A stretch of 33,550 bases of DNA from contig CANQLM010000005.1 of the NCBI GenBank assembly GCA_947624735.1, forward strand, positions 1-33,550. The letters run 5' to 3'. The translations under genes and the position numbers were made by a program. Under the pieces are notes generated by a model. It saw only the letters and a program-made list of their open reading frames with translations. It had not been told where the DNA came from and ran no database searches. Position 1 is the stretch's first letter, and every line of letters begins with the position of its first letter. The DNA comes from an uncultured Clostridia bacterium. Lineage in GTDB: Bacteria > Bacillota > Clostridia > TANB77 > CAG-508. This document shows positions 275 to 30,872 of the stretch, in pieces.

Positions 275-1502
275 CTACTTTAAATATAAAAGTGGTCGAA
301 AACCGTTGTACAGTGCGAAATCGCCAGAACCAGCGTAGTAGCGAGAAGCTGTGAAGTAGGTGCTACTACCATCGTACATGCCTCGAAAAACACAAGGATA
401 ATTGTTGTCGCCAACAGTTAACGTAGAATATTCTGTTGTCCACTCATATACATTTCCTGCCATATCACATATGTGACATCTTTCATCTCCTGATACTCCT
501 GTATTCTGAATACTCAAATTTTCAACTGTCCTATTCGCATAATTCTTATTTCCCATCGCTTGTATATATACTATTGCTGTATCCCATGCATAACTGTTTA
601 CTAAATCACTTGCATAACTTTCTTTTCCTTCATATATTCCGTGTGATACTTCAGCAGCTCTTGATTGAGTTATATTATTCCATACCACCTCTCCTACTCT
701 TGATACTGGCTTATCTCCATCACCTTTTCCTGCTTCATACCTTGCTATATAATATCCATGATTTGTTTCTACACTTCTTATAAATTCATCTAACTTTTCT
801 CCTCCTCCAAATACATTTGTCCTTCCCGTATTTGTATTCTCTCTAAAATAACCTGTAGGTTCATTATCAATTCCAATATCAAATGTAGGATCATCATCAT
901 CTCTTTCTGAGCCTTTCTGTACTAATAATGGTGTCCCATCTTCTAAGTCAAATTTATATCTTCCTAGTGTTATTTCTACTTCTTCGTTATCGCTTTTTTT
1001 GATTAATCCTTTTCCGATTTCCATCATTGTTTCCATCTATATTACTTACTGGTATCCATACAAATTGATTTTGTTCTACATCTTCTATCACTATTCCATC
1101 TTCTACATTTGTTCCTGCCACATATTTAAATCCACTTGGTATTACTAATAGATTTCCTAGACTATCTTGCACTTTTTTATTTTCTTCATGTTCCGTACTT
1201 GTTACTGTTGATACTAATGGTCTTTTTTCTCCATCTGGCGGAGTATTTGGGTCTCCTATTTCTCCTTTTTCATATTTGTCTAATTCTTTTTCTAGATTTA
1301 TTAATAAGTCTTGTTCGTTTGTTTGGGCTACTTTATATCTATCTGCTACATTTTTTGCTCTATGAAATAATCCATTTTCTGATAATGCTATATTTATTGT
1401 TACACCTGCTAGTATTAATAGTATTATTATTGTTACTACTAATGCTACTAATGTGATACCCTTTTCTTGTAAATTTCTTGCTTTGTTTTCTTCTTTTTTC
1501 AT
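275..1502 (-). pseudogene. Prepilin-like N-terminus plus formylglycine-generating/C-type-lectin-like C-terminal domain, copy 1; ORF split by an apparent +1 frameshift near 1016 (pseudogene or recoded)
   Basis: ORFs 987-1502 (KGITLVALVVTIIILLILAGVTINIALSENGLFHRAKN) and 275-1036 (..EVEITLGRYKF..CHICDMAGNVYEWTTEYS..GFRPLLYLK) are collinear with copy 2. Removing one base at ~1016 gives a continuous ..NNDGNGKGLIKKSDNEEVEITLGRY.. reading. Confidence 0.85.
284..412 (-). other. Candidate DGR variable region (VR) of pilin-like copy 1
   Basis: The C-terminal stretch GDNNYPCVFRGMYDGSSTYFTASRYYAGSGDFALYNGFRPLLYLK has locally raised GC and mostly NNC/NNT codons. It aligns with copy 2, with differences clustered between conserved anchors (CCTTGTGTT, ACAGCT, CGCTAC, GGTTTTCG, CCACTTTTATATTTAAAGTAG). 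Confidence 0.65.
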
Positions 1503-1714
1503 TTTAATTTTCCTTTCTTATTTCTTTTGTTTTTTAACCATTTTTGGTTTTAAAAATACTTTTTATTTAGTATCTCCTGAGCTTTATAATTTATACTTTG
1601 AAGATTTTTGTTTTATATTAAAGTTATCAACTTATTTGATTTAGATATATTTTATCAATCTGTCTGAATTAAGTCAATATATTGTTGTATGTCATTTCTT
1701 ATTTATTATGTAGT

Positions 1715-1909
1715 TTTTATTAATGAAAAAACTTAATAAAAAAGCAACAAATCTTATAATTCAATATTTCAAAGTATTTTATAAGATTTTTTGCTTTTAT
1801 TTTTTTACAAAAATGTAATATTTATTTTTGTTTAATTTATTGTAAAAGTATCATTGTTATGCTATATTATTTTTAATATACTTTTTATTAAGTTTTTTCA
1901 TTAATAAAA
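1715..1909. mobile_element. MITE-like element with 28-bp perfect terminal inverted repeats
   Basis: TTTTATTAATGAAAAAACTTAATAAAAA (1715-1742) is the exact reverse complement of TTTTTATTAAGTTTTTTCATTAATAAAA (1882-1909). The ~140 bp interior is non-coding and contains its own hairpin (AAATCTTATAA...TTATAAGATTT). Confidence 0.7.
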
Positions 1910-1961
1910 TATTTGTACTTTTACTAAATATTTAATTTTACTTTAAGTGATTAATGTTTTT

Positions 1962-2933
1962 CTATTTTTTTACTTTTACTAAGTTTTTTATTCTTCTTAG
2001 TTCAATTTCGTCTATATTGGCTATTTTCTTTATTTTATCATCTTCCACATTATTTTTTATCATTGACATTATAATTTGTTCCTTACCTTCATCTATTCCT
2101 GCTGCTCTTATTGCTTTCTCATCCATTATTGCTTTTTCCCTTAAAAATGCTATCCTCTCCATTTTCTCATCTTCTGTCAATTCTCTTATCTTTACTACTG
2201 CTTCTTCTACTCCTTTATTCTCTTCCATTATTTTCTCTACCTCCTTACTATTAGGGTTATCTAAAAATAATATCCATTGTGCTTTCCTATTTTTATGATT
2301 TTTCTCGTATGCCTCTTTGGCTTTCTTTAAGTCTATTATATGTATTTCTAAATCTTCTGTCAATACTTTTTGACTATTTTTCGTTTCTGTTATCTTCCAT
2401 ATTGTTTCCATTTCTTCTTGCCTTATTTCTTTTATTTCAAAATCTATTATTGCTATTAGTATTACTTTCTTTATCTTATTATAATCCTCTCCTATTTTTA
2501 TTTGTTTACTATATAGTTTCGAAAAGTACCATATTAACCTTTTTATAAAATCCTTTTTCTCTACTAATTGTATCTCTACATCTACTTTTTCATTATCATT
2601 TATATCTAGTTCTAAGTCTAGTATTCCCATTTTATCTTTTATATTATCTCTTATTAAATATTTATCATTATTTATTACTATTGATGTTATTTTTTCATTT
2701 AACAAATCCTCTGCAAATGCTTTTGTTATTGATATATTATCTTGATTAAATAAACTTTGAAATACTATGTCTATCGTTGGTCTTAGTAATTCTTTTTTGT
2801 TTTTCTTTAGTTTATTATCCTTATTCTGTTCTTTAAATTTTTCTTTGGCTTTAGAATTTTGTATTGCATTTTCCATTAAATTTAGACTCCTTTGAAATAA
2901 ATTTTCCCTGAATAAAATATAATAAAGAGCCAT
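1962..2933 (-). CDS. Rpn-family recombination-promoting nuclease / PD-(D/E)XK nuclease family putative transposase
   Basis: RPTIDIVFQSLFNQ..ILDLELDINDNEKVDVEIQLVEKKDFIKRLIWYFSKLYSKQI.. is typical of this family; C-terminal coiled region. Confidence 0.8.
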   Translation of the reverse strand: MALYYILFRENLFQRSLNLMENAIQNSKAKEKFKEQNKDNKLKKNKKELLRPTIDIVFQSLFNQDNISITKAFAEDLLNEKITSIVINNDKYLIRDNIKDKMGILDLELDINDNEKVDVEIQLVEKKDFIKRLIWYFSKLYSKQIKIGEDYNKIKKVILIAIIDFEIKEIRQEEMETIWKITETKNSQKVLTEDLEIHIIDLKKAKEAYEKNHKNRKAQWILFLDNPNSKEVEKIMEENKGVEEAVVKIRELTEDEKMERIAFLREKAIMDEKAIRAAGIDEGKEQIIMSMIKNNVEDDKIKKIANIDEIELRRIKNLVKVKK

Positions 2934-3077
2934 TATAGCTAAAAATTTAATATTTAATTTTAAAATATGGGGGTAAATTAAGAATTTAATTTTGAGTTAA
3001 AATGACTCTTTGAATTTAAAAATATATAAAATAAAAGGGCTGATTATATTGTATGACATATTTTACCAAAAGTCAAC

Positions 3078-3123
3078 AAAAATCGTATGCCATTTTTCGA
3101 CAAAATTTGACATACGATTTTTT
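3078..3123 (-). terminator. Rho-independent terminator downstream of the polC/DUF1294 transcription unit
   Basis: AAAAATCGTATG / CATACGATTTTT inverted repeat followed by a U-run on the minus strand. Confidence 0.7.
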
Positions 3124-3129
3124 ACTTTT

Positions 3130-3408
3130 TTACCTTTTTACTTTGTATATAATATAAAGTATTATACAGATTTCTATAAATATAACTAGAGGAATCCACT
3201 TTTTAAATATTCTTTCATTTTTTCTATAGTTAAACATTTCAGATGCTATCATAATTCCAACAAAGCCACCAAGTATCGAAAATACTAAATAAATTGTATC
3301 AATCCACTTTTTATCTATTTTTATAAATGTTGTTCTAATATTTATCCATATAAATATATATGAAATTAAATTTATACAAATAAAATATCCAACAATAAAA
3401 CTTATCAT
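3130..3408 (-). CDS. DUF1294-like small membrane protein
   Basis: 92 aa, three hydrophobic segments, VFSILGGFVGIMIASEMFNYRKNERIFKKWIPLVI pattern. Confidence 0.6.
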   Translation of the reverse strand: MISFIVGYFICINLISYIFIWINIRTTFIKIDKKWIDTIYLVFSILGGFVGIMIASEMFNYRKNERIFKKWIPLVIFIEICIILYIIYKVKR

Positions 3409-12130: not shown

Positions 12131-12715
12131 ATGTATGAAGCTAGAAATTCTATATATTGTTATAAAGATACTAATATATTAATAAATAAGTTAGATATAA
12201 AAGACCCAGTAATTCTTTCAGATTATGAAAAGCGTATTGTTTCTTTAAAGTTACTTGCTCTTCATAAACAAGGTATTACTGGGAATTTTGATTCAAAGCA
12301 TTTTATTAGCATTCATAAATTTTTGTTTGAAGATATATATCCGTTTGCTGGAGAATTCAGAGCAGAAAATATCGCTAAAGATAATTTTAGCTTTGCTGAT
12401 TACCAATATATTGAGCAAGAACTAACTAAAATATTAGACAAACTAAAAAATGAAAATTATCTTCAAGGTTTATCTAAAGAAGATTTAGCAAAACGTTTAG
12501 CATATTATTGGGCTGAACTTAATGTTCTTCATCCTTTTAGAGAAGGTAATGGAAGAACTACTAGAGAGTTTTTAAGACAACTTGCTCTTAAAAATGGATA
12601 TTTATTAGATTTACAAAATGTTAATACTAATGAACTTCTAGATGCTAGCATCAAATCTGTTTTTAATGAAAATGAACTTGCTAATTTGATTTATAAAACT
12701 CTAGATGATGAATAG
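12131..12715 (+). CDS. fic: Fic family protein (putative AMPylase toxin)
   Basis: HPFREGNGRTTREFLRQLA matches the Fic core HPFxxGNGRxxR; AAAGGAG RBS upstream. Confidence 0.93.
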   Translation: MYEARNSIYCYKDTNILINKLDIKDPVILSDYEKRIVSLKLLALHKQGITGNFDSKHFISIHKFLFEDIYPFAGEFRAENIAKDNFSFADYQYIEQELTKILDKLKNENYLQGLSKEDLAKRLAYYWAELNVLHPFREGNGRTTREFLRQLALKNGYLLDLQNVNTNELLDASIKSVFNENELANLIYKTLDDE

Positions 12716-21775: not shown

Positions 21776-22111
21776 TTAAAATAAATTATTGAAATAATTA
21801 TGTATTTTTAATATAGTTTTTAAATCTTGTTTATTATTATAAATAAATCTAATATAAATAATATCTTGTTTTTCTAATAAATAATATATTATACTGTAGG
21901 AAATTCTTTTTCTTCTATATATAAGTTCTCGTAATTGCTTGTCCGAAGATTTTAATAATTCTTTTCCTAAATACGGTGAATGTTCTAAATTACTTATATA
22001 TTGAAGAATATTTATGTTTGTTTCTATTGCATTTTTCAAAGAGAACTTAGCGTTGTAGTCATATATACTATAAAGACACTCTTTTGCTAAGTTTGTTATA
22101 ATCACTTGCAA
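21776..22111 (-). CDS. RelE/ParE-family toxin
   Basis: LYSIYDYNAKFSLKNAIETNINILQYISNLEHSPYLGKELLKSSDKQLRELIYRRKRISYSIIYYLLEKQDIIYIRFIYNNKQDLKTIL. Confidence 0.8.
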   Translation of the reverse strand: MQVIITNLAKECLYSIYDYNAKFSLKNAIETNINILQYISNLEHSPYLGKELLKSSDKQLRELIYRRKRISYSIIYYLLEKQDIIYIRFIYNNKQDLKTILKIHNYFNNLF

Positions 22112-22301
22112 ACTTTGCCTCCATTTCTTTTTTTAATTCTTCTAATGTGCAAACTCTACCATTGTTTATATCGTCTGCACTTTTTACTAAAGAAATAAAA
22201 AATCCCAAATTATATAAAGAATCAAAAAATGTTCCATCATCTTCTTTGCATTCCCTAAATAATTTACTAATTTTTTCAATAGGTATTATTTCATTTTTCA
22301 T
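22068..22301 (-). CDS. Probable cognate antitoxin
   Basis: MKNEIIPIEKISKLFRE..CTLEELKKEMEAKF; GGAAGG RBS before the internal Met; overlaps the toxin start by 44 nt. Confidence 0.6.
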   Translation of the reverse strand: MKNEIIPIEKISKLFRECKEDDGTFFDSLYNLGFFISLVKSADDINNGRVCTLEELKKEMEAKFASDYNKLSKRVSL

Positions 22302-22317
22302 TTTACTACCTTCCTTT

Positions 22318-22533
22318 CTAATTTTTAATATAATTTGCTTTATTATTGTTACCAATTAAGCATTGAATAATCTCTTTGTCATCTTCAGATAAATCTTCTG
22401 TTCCATAACTATCTACATATCTTTGTGTTACATCCTTTAATATATCAATTGTTTTTCTTGTTTTGATTTCTTCTTCTAGTTCATATGGTAGATTTTCAAT
22501 AATATTTATAAATTTTTCTCTTACTGGCGTCAT
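22318..22533 (-). CDS. Small hypothetical protein upstream of the TA pair
   Basis: 71-aa ORF MTPVREKFINIIENLPYELEEEIKTRKTIDILKDVTQRY.. with GAAAGGAAA RBS. Confidence 0.6.
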   Translation of the reverse strand: MTPVREKFINIIENLPYELEEEIKTRKTIDILKDVTQRYVDSYGTEDLSEDDKEIIQCLIGNNNKANYIKN

Positions 22534-22672: not shown

Positions 22673-24259
22673 TTAAAAATTCCAGTGAATTATAACATCC
22701 TGTTTTTCTTTTGTTTCACTTGAATCTGTTTTTGATTTTTCTTTTTCTCCAATTTCTATAAAATCTATAAACTCATTTACTATTTCAAAATTAAGTATAT
22801 TAAAATTTTTATATTTATTAATTATTTTTTCCTTATTCTCTTTTATTAATTTACTATTTGCTTCTTTTTCTTTTAGCTTTAATAAATCATTTTCAATTCT
22901 TTCTATTTCTTTTTGTTTATTATCTTTATCTGCTAAAAAAGATTTATTTAAGTCTTCAAAAGTATTTTCTGTAACTTTTTTATTTACTTTATCTATATAA
23001 AGTTCTTTTATTGCTTGGTTTATATCATTCATTTCTTTTAATAGAATAGTTTTTTCTTTTTGCAAATTATCACATTTTAGCTTATTATCATTTATAACAA
23101 ATAACTCATCTGGTATATTATTAAAATCATAATACTTAATTATTTTTTCTCTTATTTTGTTTTCTATTATTTCCTTTAACTTATCATATCCAATAGAGTG
23201 TCTTGTGCAATTTCCATATAATTTTTTTGAAAACTTACATGAAAAAAATGTATATCCTTTTGAATTTTGACATTTATACATTTTGTTTTTACAGTCTTTG
23301 CATATTAGTTTATTTGCAAAAATATGTTTTTCTCCATTTTTACATTTTCTAGTTCTTTCTCTAAATAAAGCCTGTACTTTATTAAACTGCTCTTTTGATA
23401 TAATAGCTTCATGAGTGTTTTCTACTATAATTCTTTTATTGGTTGGAATTGTAATTTTCTTTTTGGATTTGTAGCTTACTTTTTTATTATATCCTTGTAC
23501 CATATTTCCAATATACATTTGATTTTTTAATATTTTAGTTATTGTAGATTCACTCCAGTAAGCATTATTTTTTCCATTATTCTTAAAATTAAGACCTTTT
23601 GAAATTTTATATCTTGTTGGTGTTAAAATTTTTTCATTATTTAATTGTGTGGCAATTTTACTTATTCCATATCCATTTTCATATAAATTAAATATTTCTT
23701 TAATTACTCCTGATACTTCTCTATCTACTACTAACTTATTTTTGTTGTCTTTATCGCTTTTATATCCATAACATACGAAACTTCCTATATGAAGTCCTTG
23801 TTTTCTTTTATTGTCAAATGTCTTTTTAATGTTTTCAGATAAATCTTCTAAATACCATTCATTGACTAGTCCATTTATCTGTCTTGATTTTTTATTACCT
23901 TTATCAAGAGTATCAACATGGTCTACTAAACTTATAAATCTAATATTCCACTCTACAAATTTATTATGTAAGTATTTTTCAACCACTTCCATATCACGAG
24001 TAAATCTACTTTGTGTTTTACAGAGTACTATATCAAATTTATGATTTTCGCCATCAGTTAATAATTTATTAAATTCAGGTCTTTTGCTATCTATTCCAGA
24101 ATAATCTTCATCACAGTAAATTTTATATATATCCCATCCTCTTTCTATAGAATAATTAATGAGCATAGATTTTTGATTTTGGATACTTTCACTCTCTAAC
24201 TCTTTGCTTGATTTATTTTCATCTTCTCGTGAAAGACGCACATAAATTGCAACTTTCAT
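22673..24259 (-). CDS. Large serine recombinase
   Basis: MKVAIYVRLSREDE (catalytic Ser region), SIQNQKSMLINYSIERGWDIYKIYCDEDYSGIDSKRPEFNKLL, recombinase domain, zinc ribbon LICKDCKNKMYKCQNSKGYTFFSCKF, C-terminal coiled coil. Confidence 0.97.
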   Translation of the reverse strand: MKVAIYVRLSREDENKSSKELESESIQNQKSMLINYSIERGWDIYKIYCDEDYSGIDSKRPEFNKLLTDGENHKFDIVLCKTQSRFTRDMEVVEKYLHNKFVEWNIRFISLVDHVDTLDKGNKKSRQINGLVNEWYLEDLSENIKKTFDNKRKQGLHIGSFVCYGYKSDKDNKNKLVVDREVSGVIKEIFNLYENGYGISKIATQLNNEKILTPTRYKISKGLNFKNNGKNNAYWSESTITKILKNQMYIGNMVQGYNKKVSYKSKKKITIPTNKRIIVENTHEAIISKEQFNKVQALFRERTRKCKNGEKHIFANKLICKDCKNKMYKCQNSKGYTFFSCKFSKKLYGNCTRHSIGYDKLKEIIENKIREKIIKYYDFNNIPDELFVINDNKLKCDNLQKEKTILLKEMNDINQAIKELYIDKVNKKVTENTFEDLNKSFLADKDNKQKEIERIENDLLKLKEKEANSKLIKENKEKIINKYKNFNILNFEIVNEFIDFIEIGEKEKSKTDSSETKEKQDVIIHWNF

Positions 24260-24686: not shown

Positions 24687-26075
24687 CTACTTTAAATATA
24701 AAAGTGGGCGAAAACCGACGCTATCGGTGTTATCCGTTGGACCGTAGCTGTAGCGAAGAGCTGTCCAATAGTAGGTACTGCTGTACATACCGCCTCTAGG
24801 AACACAAGGGGTACCGATGCTACCGAGCCAATGCATCAGAATATTCTGTCGTCCATTCCAATAAATTACCTGCCATATCAAATATGTGACATTTTTCGTC
24901 TCCTGTTGCTCCTGTATTTAACACTGAACTTTTTGTTGATCCATTTGCGTTTGCATAATTGCTATGTCCCATTTTTTGTATATATACTATCGCTGTATCC
25001 CATGCATAACTATTTACTAAATCACTTTCTACATAACTTGATTCATTCCCACTACTATACATATTTTTACATACTATTGAACTATCTTCCTCTGTTATAT
25101 ATCTCCATAATTTTCCTTCTGCAATTGATGTTGCACTATCATTTGCATTAAGAGTATCATCATTACCTTTTTTGGTTGGTTTTACTTCTGGCTTTTGGTT
25201 TGTCATTATAGAAGTTTTAGCGGTATCAAAAAATCCATAGCCATCAGCTGGAACACTTCCACTTCCAAAACTTGCTTCATATCTTGCTAAGTAGTATCCA
25301 TTATTATTCCCTACACTTGTTACAAATCCTTCTAATGATTTTGCTCCCACTCCTCCATTTGTTCTAGGTTCTTCTGTGTTTGTACTTTCTATAAAATTTG
25401 TGTTAATTGACTTTCCTTTGACTGAACGATTTGCTCCTGATTGCTTTAATTCTTCTTTTCCATTTTCTGCATTAAATTCATATCTTCCTAGTGTTATTTC
25501 TACTTTGCTTCCATCTTTTTTCGTAATTAATCCTGTTCCTTTTCCGTCATTATTTCCGTTTATATTGCTTACTGGTATCCATACGAATTGATTTTTATCT
25601 GCATCTTCTATTACTATTCCGTCTTCTACTGTTTCTCCTTCTACTACTTTAAATGTTCCTGGTACTGTTACTGGATTTCCTAATTTGTCTTCTGCTTTTA
25701 TTGTTTCATGGTCAGTTGTTGTTACTGTCGTTACTAATGGTTTTCCATTTGGTCCTTCGCCTTCTTTTGGTGGGTTGGTTGGTGTTGTTGGTGTTGGTGT
25801 TGTTGTTATATTACTATATTGGTCTAATTCTCTATCTAGATTTGTTAATAAGTCTTGTTCATTTGTCTGGGCTACCTTATATCTACCTGCTGCATTTTTT
25901 GCCCTCTGAAATAATCCGTTTTCTGACAATGCTATATTTATTGTTACTCCTGCTAATATTAATAGTATTATTATGGTTACTACTAGTGCTACAAGTGTAA
26001 TTCCGTTTTTCTCTAATATTTATTTGTTTTGTTTTATTTTGTTTCTTTAACAATTTTGTTCTTTGAATGTTTCTC
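24687..26075 (-). pseudogene. Prepilin-like plus FGE/C-type-lectin-like protein, copy 2 (element cargo); apparent +1 frameshifts near 26005 and 24825
   Basis: The body (24820-25929) aligns with copy 1. The N-terminal ITLVALVVTIIILLILAGVTINIALSENGLF is present but out of frame with a GTG start preceded by AAAGGAGG (~26075). The C-terminal VR (..GTPCVPRGGMYSSTYYWTALRYSYGPTDNTDSVGFRPLLYLK) is in another frame. Confidence 0.85.
24695..24830 (-). other. Candidate DGR variable region (VR) of pilin-like copy 2
   Basis: GGT AGC ATC GGT ACC ..TAC AGC AGT ACC TAC TAT TGG ACA GCT CTT CGC TAC AGC TAC GGT CCA ACG GAT AAC ACC GAT AGC GTC GGT TTT CGC: NNC/NNT-biased, GC-enriched; flanking anchors shared with copy 1. 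Confidence 0.68.
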
Positions 26076-26784: not shown

Positions 26785-26817
26785 AAAAGATTCCCTATTA
26801 AATATTGGGAATCTTTT
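26785..26817. terminator. Bidirectional terminator
   Basis: AAAAGATTCCC ... GGGAATCTTTT perfect 11-bp inverted repeat between convergent genes. Confidence 0.8.
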
Positions 26818-27397
26818 CTTTTATAATTAATTCTTTTGCTTTCATAACATCCTTTTCATTTGTAGTTTTAATTCCAAGTTTTTGTATTTCTTTAAACATT
26901 CCTTCTTTTATTCTTTCTATTTCAGTATTGGACATTCCTCTATAGTCATTAGTATCTTCATATTCTAATAACAAACCTAAATTTTCTACAAGTTGAAGTG
27001 CTAATTCCATATTATCTTTTTTCAAAACAATTACTTGATATTTTACTCTAATTAATTCTTCAAATTTTAAACACTCAAATAATTTCTTGGCTGTTTCTAA
27101 ATCTTTACAGTCTATACTTATCTTTTGTTCAGATAATAAATTATTATTTTTATCATATTTTTTGTTTTTATACGTAATTTTTTTTATTTCTTCTCCTTCT
27201 ATATTTAAGTATCTAAGTAATACAGAATTTGATAATATGTATTGTATATTATCACTTTTTAATTTATCGACTAATTGTGACATATATAAATCATTTATTT
27301 CACTTTTTCTTATAATAACAAATTCTTCTTTTTTAAGTTTTGTTACAACATTTTCCAAACTTTCTTTTACTCTTACAGTTATTTCAATTTGCTCCAT
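26798..27397 (-). CDS. CYTH domain-like protein
   Basis: MEQIEITVRVKESLENVVTKLKK.. start, Lys/Glu-rich alternating strands, KISIDCKDLETAKKLFECLKFEELIRVKYQVIVLKKDNMELALQLVENLGLLLEYE. Confidence 0.65.
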   Translation of the reverse strand: MEQIEITVRVKESLENVVTKLKKEEFVIIRKSEINDLYMSQLVDKLKSDNIQYILSNSVLLRYLNIEGEEIKKITYKNKKYDKNNNLLSEQKISIDCKDLETAKKLFECLKFEELIRVKYQVIVLKKDNMELALQLVENLGLLLEYEDTNDYRGMSNTEIERIKEGMFKEIQKLGIKTTNEKDVMKAKELIIKEKIPNI

Positions 27398-27473
27398 ATC
27401 TTTTCATTTTTCCTTTCAAACTTATTGTAAAATATTATACAAAATTAATAAAAAAAAGTAAAGAATAAAAATA

Positions 27474-27506
27474 TCCCACAATTTGAATTGCTTTCAAATT
27501 GTGGGA
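27474..27506 (-). terminator. Terminator downstream of greA
   Basis: TCCCACAATTTGAA-TTGCT-TTCAAATTGTGGGA perfect 14-bp stem; T-rich on the minus side. Confidence 0.8.
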
Positions 27507-27546
27507 TTAAACATAAGAATTACTTATATTTAAGATTATAAAATGT

Positions 27547-28011
27547 TTATATTCTTTTAACCGAAATAATTTTAATGCTTATTCCATTAAAATCAATTGT
27601 TTCACCAACTTTTTTTCCAATTAATACTTGTGCTAATGGTGATTCGCATGAAATAATATCTTCATCTAAGTTACCTTCTTCATTTCCTAAAATAGTATAT
27701 TCCTCTTCATATCCATCGAAAATTAATTGGACTTTTGAACCTATAATTACTTTTGTGCCATCAAATTTTTTATAATCATCTGTTTCTTCTATAATTATTG
27801 CCGTTTGATATCTTTGAAAAAGTTGCTTCCGTTTTTCTGGCAGTGAATACATAGCTTGTACCCTTAAATCCATATATTCTGAATTTTCTCTTAAATCATT
27901 ATCTCTTTTGGCACTTTCGCCCATTTTTTTATGAGCTTCTATAATTTTACTTTCCATTTGGAGAAAATCTTGATAAAGTTTCTCATAGCCTTTTCTAGTA
28001 ATGTATTCCAT
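27547..28011 (-). CDS. GreA/GreB-family transcription elongation factor
   Basis: ITRKGYEKLYQDFLQMESK..AKRDNDLRENSEYMDLRVQAM..GSKVQLIFDGYEEEYTILGNEEGNLDEDIISCESPLAQVLIGKKVGETI. Confidence 0.9.
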   Translation of the reverse strand: MEYITRKGYEKLYQDFLQMESKIIEAHKKMGESAKRDNDLRENSEYMDLRVQAMYSLPEKRKQLFQRYQTAIIIEETDDYKKFDGTKVIIGSKVQLIFDGYEEEYTILGNEEGNLDEDIISCESPLAQVLIGKKVGETIDFNGISIKIISVKRI

Positions 28012-28014
28012 TTT

Positions 28015-28464
28015 CTAAAAATCCTCCTTTTTTTCTTTCAAATATTTTCTTACCATCATAACAATTTTTCCGTAATTATTTTGTCCATCTTTAAGTGGTC
28101 CACATCCCCAATAATTTTCTTTTACTGTTGCTTCAATTATTTCTTCTTCACCAGTTTCCAGTAATTTTTCTTTAATATCAGGATTTGCTTCAAATTTAAA
28201 CAATACAGCATCAAACATTACTTGTTTTTTTATTTTTTCCCAATCTTTGCGTAATTTATGGTTTCTATCACGTCCAATATTCGAAGCTATTTTAGGAGTT
28301 TCAGCATTAATTATTTGATTTCTAATATCTTCATTTTCAAACTTTTGGGCTTGATAATAATGTTCAGATGTTTTCCAGTAAATTCCATCCCTATAAAAAC
28401 CATGATTTGAATATGTTGCCAAATACCCAAGAGGACCATTTTCTTTATAAAAATATATAGCCAT
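28015..28464 (-). CDS. NADAR (YbiA-like) family protein
   Basis: IYFYKENGPLGYLATYSNHGFYRDGIYWKTSEHYYQAQKF..NYWGCGPLKDGQNNYGKIVMMVRKYL. Confidence 0.92.
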   Translation of the reverse strand: MAIYFYKENGPLGYLATYSNHGFYRDGIYWKTSEHYYQAQKFENEDIRNQIINAETPKIASNIGRDRNHKLRKDWEKIKKQVMFDAVLFKFEANPDIKEKLLETGEEEIIEATVKENYWGCGPLKDGQNNYGKIVMMVRKYLKEKKEDF

Positions 28465-28466
28465 TT

Positions 28467-30116
28467 TTATCTCCTTCTTTGACCTGGAATTTGATAACTT
28501 ATCTCTAAATCCGACTGACTTAATATTTCATCATCTTCATTAAGGCTTACTTGTCTTCTAAAAGAAACTTGTCCAGATTCATCGGTAGTGTTAAAGAGTT
28601 GTAATTCTTCAATTGTAACAGTATTATTATAATCGCAACTTAATCTCCAAGCTGTTCCTTCTTGTGACATTTTACTATTATAGCTTCCATAATTTCGCTC
28701 ATGTGTTGGAGTTAGAGGCTCATTCTTTTTACTTGTTAGTCCACAAAATTCAGATACTGCCCTACCAAGATTACAAATAATTCCTGTATCGATTGTAAAA
28801 TCAGGATTAAAGAAATCTGATGCTTTATATTCAGCTTCTTGTAATGCTGTTACATATGCATTTACCATTGGTAAAATTTCTTCCATAATATATTGACTTT
28901 TATCTTTCTTACCATTTTTCTCGTAGTATTTTGCTTGTTGCATACAAATTGTCAATGTATTATACACATCTTGCCATGTTGCATTATCAAATTTTTCAAG
29001 ACTTTTTAATCCTTTTTTAGCTTTGTACTGTATCATTGAGTTTACTAAAAATCTTTCAGTTACAATGTAACCAGAATTAACTCTATAATCTGTTTTAGGA
29101 TATATATTAAATCCATAATTTCCATTCTCTTCTATGCTCGGATTGATTGAATAGTATATACCTTCTGCATTTTGCATCAAATATAGTTTCACAATTTTAT
29201 AATCTTTAACTTTTAAAAACTTAAAAGCTATTTTTTTCAATTCTTGAATAGAAGATACTTTGTCATAGAGGTCAATCTCATAAAATAGTGTCGCTTCTTC
29301 TGTGAGTCTAATTTTATGTTCATACGGGTCACTTATTTGGGCTACATTTAATTTACAATTTTCATCTACAGAGATATATAGATAGTTTTCTGTGCAAATT
29401 ACTTTGTGTCCAAGTACATCAGTATCAAATACTTCGGCAATTTTGACTAATGGCTTATACCTAATTTCTACACACATTTTTCTACTTCCAGCTCCAACTT
29501 TGTTATAGTATGGTTTATAGATTTTTAAGAAATTAGCCATATCACTCACATAGTCATATCTACTAAAAGATTGTGTTCTTGCACATTCCCAACCAGTTTC
29601 ATATGGTGTAAACGATAATCTTACTCCTCCTAATGCTTCCAACAGTTGTTTGTTAATTTGAGCATGCATTTGATTTAATTGTTGGTTGTGCCTGCTATAT
29701 CCTACTGTTGAGATTCTTGTCAAAACCCCTAATTCTCTGTATGCCAGTTTAATAAAGCTATACAAATATGGATAATTTCCTATATCATTGTCTAAATATG
29801 AGAAAATTACACCGGTTCTGTGTTCAAATCTGTCCCATACAATTAATGGCTTACTTTTTTCTTCCTTTGGAGAAGAATATTTTAAAGCAGCAATTACATT
29901 TCTCTGTCTTTTTTCAGTCCAATATTCTGTTGTGGTACCAGCAAATTTGCTACATATTTTACATGCATTCAAGCATCCTATTTGTGGTTGAAAATGCCGA
30001 AGTTTTGAAAAGAATTCTACTGGTAAGTTAGAAAATTCTTCAATCAATTTTTTTCTTTCCAAATAGTCTTCTTTACAAATTTCGTTTTCGTCAGATAATA
30101 GAAATTTCTTATACAT
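28467..30116 (-). CDS. Putative radical SAM enzyme of unknown function
   Basis: CLNACKIC matches the CX3CX2C cluster motif. Start at 30116 preferred: AGGAGG RBS and ATGTATAA overlap with the kinase stop. Confidence 0.65.
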   Translation of the reverse strand: MYKKFLLSDENEICKEDYLERKKLIEEFSNLPVEFFSKLRHFQPQIGCLNACKICSKFAGTTTEYWTEKRQRNVIAALKYSSPKEEKSKPLIVWDRFEHRTGVIFSYLDNDIGNYPYLYSFIKLAYRELGVLTRISTVGYSRHNQQLNQMHAQINKQLLEALGGVRLSFTPYETGWECARTQSFSRYDYVSDMANFLKIYKPYYNKVGAGSRKMCVEIRYKPLVKIAEVFDTDVLGHKVICTENYLYISVDENCKLNVAQISDPYEHKIRLTEEATLFYEIDLYDKVSSIQELKKIAFKFLKVKDYKIVKLYLMQNAEGIYYSINPSIEENGNYGFNIYPKTDYRVNSGYIVTERFLVNSMIQYKAKKGLKSLEKFDNATWQDVYNTLTICMQQAKYYEKNGKKDKSQYIMEEILPMVNAYVTALQEAEYKASDFFNPDFTIDTGIICNLGRAVSEFCGLTSKKNEPLTPTHERNYGSYNSKMSQEGTAWRLSCDYNNTVTIEELQLFNTTDESGQVSFRRQVSLNEDDEILSQSDLEISYQIPGQRRR

Positions 30117-30684
30117 AAAGCTGTTCCTCCTTAATTTTTTCATAAAGTTTTTTTATGTTTGTATCAATGTCTGGATTAGAATTATCAAAATATATTACGT
30201 TTTTGCTTAATAGACTTTGAAACTTTTCCAAAAAGGAATCTCTTTTTTGTTTATCATCTAAGACTTTATCTAATATTGATTTTCCTCTCTTATTTATTCT
30301 ATCTTGTCTAATTTTTTCAGGCAATCCGACAAATATCGTTAAATCTGGTTCCAGTATATTAAATTTTTCATAGTCAAATTCTACATTTAATCCTGCTACT
30401 TGATGAGAAACAGTAGTATCTATAAAATATCTTACACAGTAGACATTTCTATTTTTATAATCTAGATTTTTCTTAATGTAGTCTGAGATGAATACAACTG
30501 AAGATAAATAATATAAATAATGTGCCATTTGAGATGTTTGTCTCACAATATTATCAATTTTTTCACGTTCTTGATATTCTTTGCTTGGTGTCCGCGTTAG
30601 GAATGATGTTAAATCTAGTGCGTGAAGTTTTTCCGCTACAGTACTAGTTCCCGAACCATCTAGTCCTGTAATTACTATAAACAT
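30109..30684 (-). CDS. P-loop nucleoside/nucleotide kinase, thymidylate-kinase-like
   Basis: MFIVITGLDGSGTSTVAEKL (Walker A), FLTRTPSKEY (TREP-like), PDLTIFVGLPEKIRQDRINKRGK. Confidence 0.85.
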   Translation of the reverse strand: MFIVITGLDGSGTSTVAEKLHALDLTSFLTRTPSKEYQEREKIDNIVRQTSQMAHYLYYLSSVVFISDYIKKNLDYKNRNVYCVRYFIDTTVSHQVAGLNVEFDYEKFNILEPDLTIFVGLPEKIRQDRINKRGKSILDKVLDDKQKRDSFLEKFQSLLSKNVIYFDNSNPDIDTNIKKLYEKIKEEQLYV

Positions 30685-30872
30685 TTTATTTCCTCCTTTA
30701 CAAAAAATAATTATATTTTTGTATCTAAAAAATTTGATACAATAAAATTATACTATTAATTTACATAATTTTCAAGTTTTTATTAAAAAAATATTTAATT
30801 ATTCATTTATATTAAAATTTTAAAATGAGTAGTAATCTAAATTCATTTTTTAATATAATAATAAGAAAAACT

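Follow-up and report, generated by a model that had tools for sequence, protein, structure and literature searches.

We analysed a 33,550-nucleotide stretch of DNA from an uncultured Clostridia bacterium (the window), in which four tightly coupled genes occupy the minus strand from 30684 to 27547. They encode a TMPK-fold P-loop protein (191 aa; 30109..30684; PF02223, 5.8e-13), a radical-SAM protein (549 aa; 28467..30116) that combines an N-terminal CX3CX2C barrel with a C-terminal domain without known relative, a NADAR protein of the YbiA-type N-glycosidase family (149 aa; 28015..28464; TIGR02464 over cut-off; PF08719, 1.7e-33), and a GreA-like paralogue of the transcript-cleavage factors (154 aa; 27547..28011; PF01272 (GreA_GreB), 5.2e-17). 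The kinase stop and the radical-SAM start codon (ATG) overlap within ATGTATAA (30116-30109), and an alternative longer radical-SAM start lies at 30143, inside the kinase gene. A 2-nt spacer separates the radical-SAM and NADAR genes, and a 3-nt spacer the NADAR and GreA-like genes. Checking the original prediction of four near-gapless genes, we confirmed its coordinates, the overlap, both spacers and the terminator, and its family names (kinase, radical-SAM, NADAR, GreA) were correct. The limit to four genes was too narrow: those four are indeed coupled, but a fifth gene on the minus strand (26798..27397), encoding a CYTH/CyaB-like protein of 199 aa (TIGR00318, 1.2e-12, below cut-off), is conserved in the cassette and belongs to the unit.

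The gap between the GreA-like and CYTH genes holds an intrinsic terminator on the minus strand (27473..27507), a 15-pair hairpin with a T-run; the region has 2 terminator-like sites compared with 0.9 ± 1.0 in shuffled sequences. A promoter-like TTTACT-17-TATAAT element on the same strand (27434..27462) precedes the CYTH gene and matches the consensus at 10/12 positions, although the AT-rich region offers many such matches. The same gap in the L008, L011, L012 and L027 copies also shows a hairpin and then TATAAT; that of L013, as cut, is not of this form. The CYTH gene therefore seems to have its own promoter in those copies, and it is apparently transcribed separately from the other four genes. 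Upstream of the operon, we found a promoter-like TTGAAA-17-TATAAT element with an 11/12 match (30747..30775, minus strand). Between it and the ribosome-binding site lies a palindrome, TTGTATC-N10-GATACAA (30719..30742), a possible operator. This reading is suggestive only, since other Clostridial copies carry different AT-rich palindromes there.

The CX3CX2C motif of the radical-SAM protein reads CLNACKIC (C48, C52 and C55 of the 549 residues). A motif search found CX3CX2C in 40/40 locus rows as well as in the window protein, and the three cysteines together with 21 further residues are invariant in a 41-row alignment (A4). Searches of Pfam, NCBIfam, PADLOC, PHROGs and PDB sequences returned no significant match to the protein. 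The PF04055 profile missed the window protein and matched 9 of 41 relatives, at best with an E value of 0.0015. The original prediction had noted the motif in a protein of otherwise unfamiliar look, and both remarks were borne out: the radical-SAM protein founds a family absent from curated libraries. Weak matches in seven genomes of the same family extended over only some 40-75 residues around the cysteines, one of them ELP3-like by eye, and were set aside; a match in G141 was spurious, with stops inside. The tree of the radical-SAM proteins sets Bacillota apart from all others (full SH-aLRT support), on rows of very uneven letter make-up.

Performing AlphaFold2 prediction, we obtained a high-confidence model (pLDDT 92.9, pTM 0.91), whose Foldseek matches were remote radical-SAM barrels (prob 0.93-1.0). 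The best PDB match was CteB (5why; prob 0.93, E 0.044), remote and at the level of the fold; a viral (phage) radical-SAM protein matched over 197 columns (prob 1.00, E 1.7e-3), again remotely. At this remote, fold-level similarity, the model has a partial TIM-barrel radical-SAM fold, while no convincing Foldseek match was found for the C-terminal half. Membership in the viperins was rejected, as the PADLOC viperin model gave no hit at E up to 1; a viperin structure stood at rank 39 of the Foldseek list (E 1.1).

The first gene product has the fold and profile of thymidylate kinases. It scores 49.4 bits against PF02223 (Thymidylate_kin; cut-off 27), and its family profile matches yeast TMPK at 8.8e-8. 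In the window protein, the P-loop reads GLDGSGTST, the Walker-A lysine being replaced by threonine, and DRY has become VRY. Every full-length Bacillota member (13-14 homologues) carries GLDG[S/T]GTS[T/S] in place of GxxGxGK[T/S], together with VRY, whereas the housekeeping TMPK of the same genome retains GKQT and ADRY and the Actinobacterial cassette kinases retain the P-loop lysine. Because the Walker-A lysine and the DR-motif aspartate are lost in every Bacillota member, kinase activity cannot be assumed. The earlier label of a TMP-kinase-like enzyme is weakened to that extent, while its assignment to the TMPK fold stands. The open-access papers searched gave no usable precedent for a TMPK P-loop without lysine.

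The NADAR protein matches TIGR02464 over its full length at 120.9 bits (curated cut-off 73.7) and YbiA (2b3w) at 1.1e-28. The YbiA-type motifs TSEHYYQAQKF and YWG are retained in most or all NADAR members; L015 deviates from the first pattern. Unlike YbiA, the cassette NADAR is an obligate partner of a radical-SAM gene and in some loci forms a fusion with radical SAM, GreA or DHH. The GreA-like protein shares with GreA/GreB the coiled-coil tip, DLREN, and the C-terminal FKBP-like domain, and it matches 1grj at 7e-9. The acidic tip (equivalents of E. coli D41/E44) is present in 13/13 separate homologues and in the fusion of L019; judged by these residues, it is catalytically intact. At 81.9 bits against the GreA subfamily model TIGR01462 (cut-off 139), the cassette copy is a diverged second paralogue that lies in a mobile operon and is once fused to NADAR. 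Since its D..E tip is invariant and a separate housekeeping GreA is encoded in the same genome, we consider it an extra, specialised copy.

The CYTH-like protein scores 48 bits against the cyaB profile TIGR00318 (cut-off 57.95), and the CYTH family profile matches the archaeal CYTH protein 1yem at 1.6e-4. Its ExExK motif is degraded, reading QIEIT in the window and QIE[IV]T in 9/9 full-length members. With the lysine and aspartate of the TMPK-fold protein also lost, two of the five proteins may not be the usual enzymes of their families. Away from the cassette, the genome of L018 (G912) encodes a second, more distant CYTH homologue (locus L101, C6:53130-53666; E 2.5e-28). In the window, a protein cut by the contig end (32932-33549, minus strand) has no Pfam match and looks CYTH-like by eye in its KISWKKR and VALEIE segments.

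Scanning genome contigs, we collected 42 loci of the radical-SAM family. In Bacillota, a NADAR gene was adjacent or fused to the radical-SAM gene in 24/24 loci. The Clostridial order is kinase, radical SAM, NADAR, GreA and CYTH, some copies being cut by contig ends; G119, from another genus of the same family, has the identical gene order and then the CYTH/CyaB-like gene, and in L006 the CYTH gene lies upstream of the kinase gene. The gene set named in the original prediction is thus co-conserved elsewhere, in G119 and other Clostridia. Most Bacilli loci instead read LysR, radical SAM, NADAR. In six of them (L017, L020, L021, L022, L025 and L044; L017 checked with Pfam) the NADAR protein is extended by a DHH phosphoesterase, and neither the cassette kinase nor the CYTH gene was found anywhere in these six genomes, which are drafts, so that their absence is suggestive only. 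In three others (L018, L019 and L023), genes for a PLP aminotransferase, CYTH and kinase come after NADAR. Pfam confirmed a radical SAM-NADAR fusion in L016 and a NADAR-GreA fusion in L019.

Actinobacteria, Berkelbacteria and one Gemmatimonad show a different arrangement of kinase, ATP-grasp, radical SAM and NUDIX, with varying completeness. The radical-SAM gene stands without these partners in the Daviesbacteria copy L029 and in L037, L042 and L047. GreA is absent from most Bacilli loci and from every Actinobacterial locus. The five families correlate in their pairwise identities (r = 0.76-0.98, uncorrected for shared phylogeny). None of the open-access papers searched describes radical SAM and NADAR together in an operon of this kind, or a combination of radical SAM with ATP-grasp, thymidylate kinase and Nudix.

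The distribution of the cassette is patchy, its hosts being scattered among gut and environmental bacteria. At full length, it is found in 3/145 genomes of the family and 0/7 other genomes of the genus; a sample of the phylum contained it in 1/399 genomes, namely the window's own. Between L008 and L009, 4,025 bp align at 95.5% DNA identity, beginning about 110 bp ahead of the kinase gene and ending about 85 bp past CYTH; outside this segment the stretches compared have nothing in common. L007 is 96-97% identical to both, and L010, L012, L013 and L027 form a second set (88-95%). Near-identical copies (95-97%, about 4.0 kb) in unrelated flanks show that this is a discrete, horizontally moving cassette. 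Mobile-element genes lie near 8 of the 11 Clostridial loci with usable flanks, while the same queries found none in 195 kb of this genome, a background that may be understated because these are the longest contigs. They include MobC and a relaxase upstream of L007, Mob_Pre beside L008 (with a Fic protein), an IS200 transposase beside L009 and an integrase beside L012. L013 is preceded by an endolysin-type amidase and followed by UPF0236. Large serine recombinases lie near the cassette in L015, L027 and the window (22673..24259, minus strand; Resolvase and Recombinase Pfam matches).

Composition was compared with a baseline of 195 kb of the genome's other contigs plus the window. CGG makes up 3 of 55 arginine codons in the cassette versus 6 of 1880 in the genome's other genes (Fisher p = 0.0016), so the CGG bias claimed earlier holds, on small counts. 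Only the CYTH gene, which is very AT-rich, departs from a normal GC content, and the kinase and radical-SAM genes lie at the 3rd-4th percentile of codon adaptation. Horizontal transfer, which had been proposed from codon use, is now also backed by the near-identical copies in unrelated flanks and by the patchiness. At the level of sequence, the five genes are shown to be inherited together and to move horizontally as a single unit, with radical-SAM and NADAR at its centre.

Carriage of the radical-SAM gene by phages or plasmids was not found, apart from a relative on a Streptomyces globosus plasmid (L004, NZ_CP030864.1) that is a C-terminal piece only, beside a NUDIX gene and close to transposase genes. 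A single IMG/VR match was rejected as a virus, having the same extent and coordinates as the Bailinhaonella genome contig of L039 (74% GC). Elsewhere in the window, on the minus strand, we noticed a ParE-type toxin gene (21779-22355; PF05016, 24.4 bits) overlapped by a small ORF on its upstream side, likely a toxin-antitoxin pair, and two prepilin-like proteins that resemble each other and have an N-terminal segment in common (275-1502, split over the frames 987-1502 and 275-1036, and 24820-25929). A Fic/DOC family protein is encoded on the plus strand (12131-12715; PF02661, 1.8e-18).

Nearly all partners belong to nucleotide- or phosphate-acting families (TMPK-fold, NADAR, CYTH, NUDIX, and DHH/PPase fused to NADAR). 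From these partners we infer the nucleotide chemistry of the cassette, and a nucleotide as the radical-SAM substrate is guilt by association. A nucleotide-linked role, as proposed earlier, is plausible, its kinase basis being weakened by the lost residues. The GreA paralogue is the most informative component: finding a cleavage factor intact within a mobile operon of biosynthetic appearance suggests a product that stalls RNA polymerase. We therefore put forward tentatively, as somewhat short of probable, a mobile five-gene nucleotide-tailoring cassette in which the radical-SAM protein would tailor a nucleotide affecting RNA polymerase and the GreA paralogue would provide self-protection. A 5'-deoxyadenosyl radical generated at a [4Fe-4S] cluster would alter a nucleoside or nucleotide, which the TMPK-fold protein, devoid of two catalytic residues, may bind or present instead of acting as an ordinary kinase. 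NADAR would break the N-glycosidic bond in an intermediate or unwanted product, and the CYTH-like protein may bind or clear the phosphorylated form. The GreA paralogue would enter the secondary channel of RNA polymerase and cleave transcripts at which the modified nucleotide has caused a stall. Around the shared radical-SAM core in Actinobacteria, the equivalent phosphate and ligation steps would fall to an intact kinase, ATP-grasp ligase and NUDIX. Protection of the polymerase is not a general feature, as GreA is missing from most Bacilli and all Actinobacterial loci.

This logic resembles that of viperin (RSAD2/pVip) and CMPK2, with a Gre protection factor added. Both systems pair a CX3CX2C radical SAM with an adjoining TMPK-family protein and invoke a modified nucleotide acting on a polymerase; human CMPK2 is a TMPK-family kinase. 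Its gene lies alongside that of viperin, and the kinase feeds into the making of ddhCTP (PMC10058120). The cassette differs in a radical-SAM protein without viperin-model match and with an extra C-terminal domain of about 300 aa, in a TMPK-fold protein without the Walker-A lysine, and in its NADAR, GreA and CYTH partners. By logic, it can also be likened to nucleoside-antibiotic clusters (pseudouridimycin, oxazinomycin), which involve nucleotide-type tailoring and target RNA polymerase; these clusters are not known to include a radical SAM of the cassette type, NADAR or a Gre factor. In one context, GreA relieves the RNA polymerase arrest caused by oxazinomycin triphosphate; in another, GreA/GreB reactivate the enzyme after the analogue is washed out (PMC6821320). 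In its most far-reaching form, which we regard as rather unlikely, our reading would make the cassette an as yet undescribed mobile antimetabolite or antiviral pathway with a transcript-cleavage antidote: a non-viperin radical-SAM protein makes a nucleotide that stalls RNA polymerase, and the dedicated GreA confers producer immunity.

Could the cassette instead clean up nucleotides? It would then remove aberrant nucleotides or riboflavin-type intermediates, NADAR cleaving damaged N-glycosides as YbiA does, NUDIX, CYTH and DHH removing phosphates, GreA excising misincorporated RNA residues, and the radical-SAM protein repairing or degrading the damaged base. The NADAR is of the ribofla_fusion/YbiA type above its curated cut-off, the Actinobacterial NUDIX partners best match MutT/NudI-like house-cleaning enzymes, and the LysR regulator and stable flanks of the Bacilli loci look metabolic. 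House-cleaning functions, however, are usually stable and widespread, while this cassette is rare, patchy and mobile in Clostridia, and the ATP-grasp ligase and PLP aminotransferase favour synthesis over clean-up; we consider sanitation rather unlikely. Those two partners, an ATP-grasp protein of the D-Ala-D-Ala-ligase/PurK type among Actinobacteria and their relatives and the aminotransferase in three Bacilli loci, would also suit the biosynthesis of a secondary metabolite or cofactor (e.g. a nucleoside-amino-acid conjugate) unrelated to RNA polymerase, and the actinobacterial hosts are rich in natural products. Yet no carrier, transporter or further biosynthetic gene recurs beside the core, and unless there is a link to transcription the presence of a GreA paralogue is difficult to account for, which leaves this explanation distinctly unlikely.

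The original prediction had also proposed a defence module. Such a module might act against phages through an antiviral nucleotide or in another nucleotide-mediated way. Defence would be compatible with the mobility of the cassette, its patchy distribution, its transfer as a unit and the mobile-element genes around it. Single defence-like neighbours were seen, Fic in L008 and, in L024, a NACHT NTPase with pentapeptide repeats (954-3356) directly upstream of the radical-SAM gene of an Erysipelotrichales genome. Beyond single Fic, UvrD and NACHT neighbours, no enrichment of defence genes and no defence islands were detected around the loci, nor was phage enrichment seen; in some Bacilli the cassette is a chromosomal locus with a LysR regulator. 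Among single components of PADLOC systems, the kinase and NADAR match those of PDC-M51/PDC-M42 and VakA (the kinase matching PDC-M51B and VakA), and no other component was matched in the cassette. The PDC-M51B match is unspecific, since this model also picks up proteins in ordinary control genomes (E. coli plus 11 others) and, in relatives, plain dTMP kinases, so a known PADLOC system was rejected. NADAR falls far under the cut-off of the DS32_2 anti-phage protein (NF053876; 73.1 versus 240 bits), and the radical-SAM protein has no PADLOC match and no relative in phage records or genuine viral contigs. The defence claim thus found no direct support, and we hold it unlikely.

What is new is a radical-SAM family unrecognised by curated libraries, which in Bacillota is always coupled to NADAR and in Clostridia travels as an intact 4-kb cassette. 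If our reading of a nucleotide directed at RNA polymerase is true, the cassette would represent a new way of producing such a nucleotide and of surviving it, the antidote being a transcript-cleavage factor.
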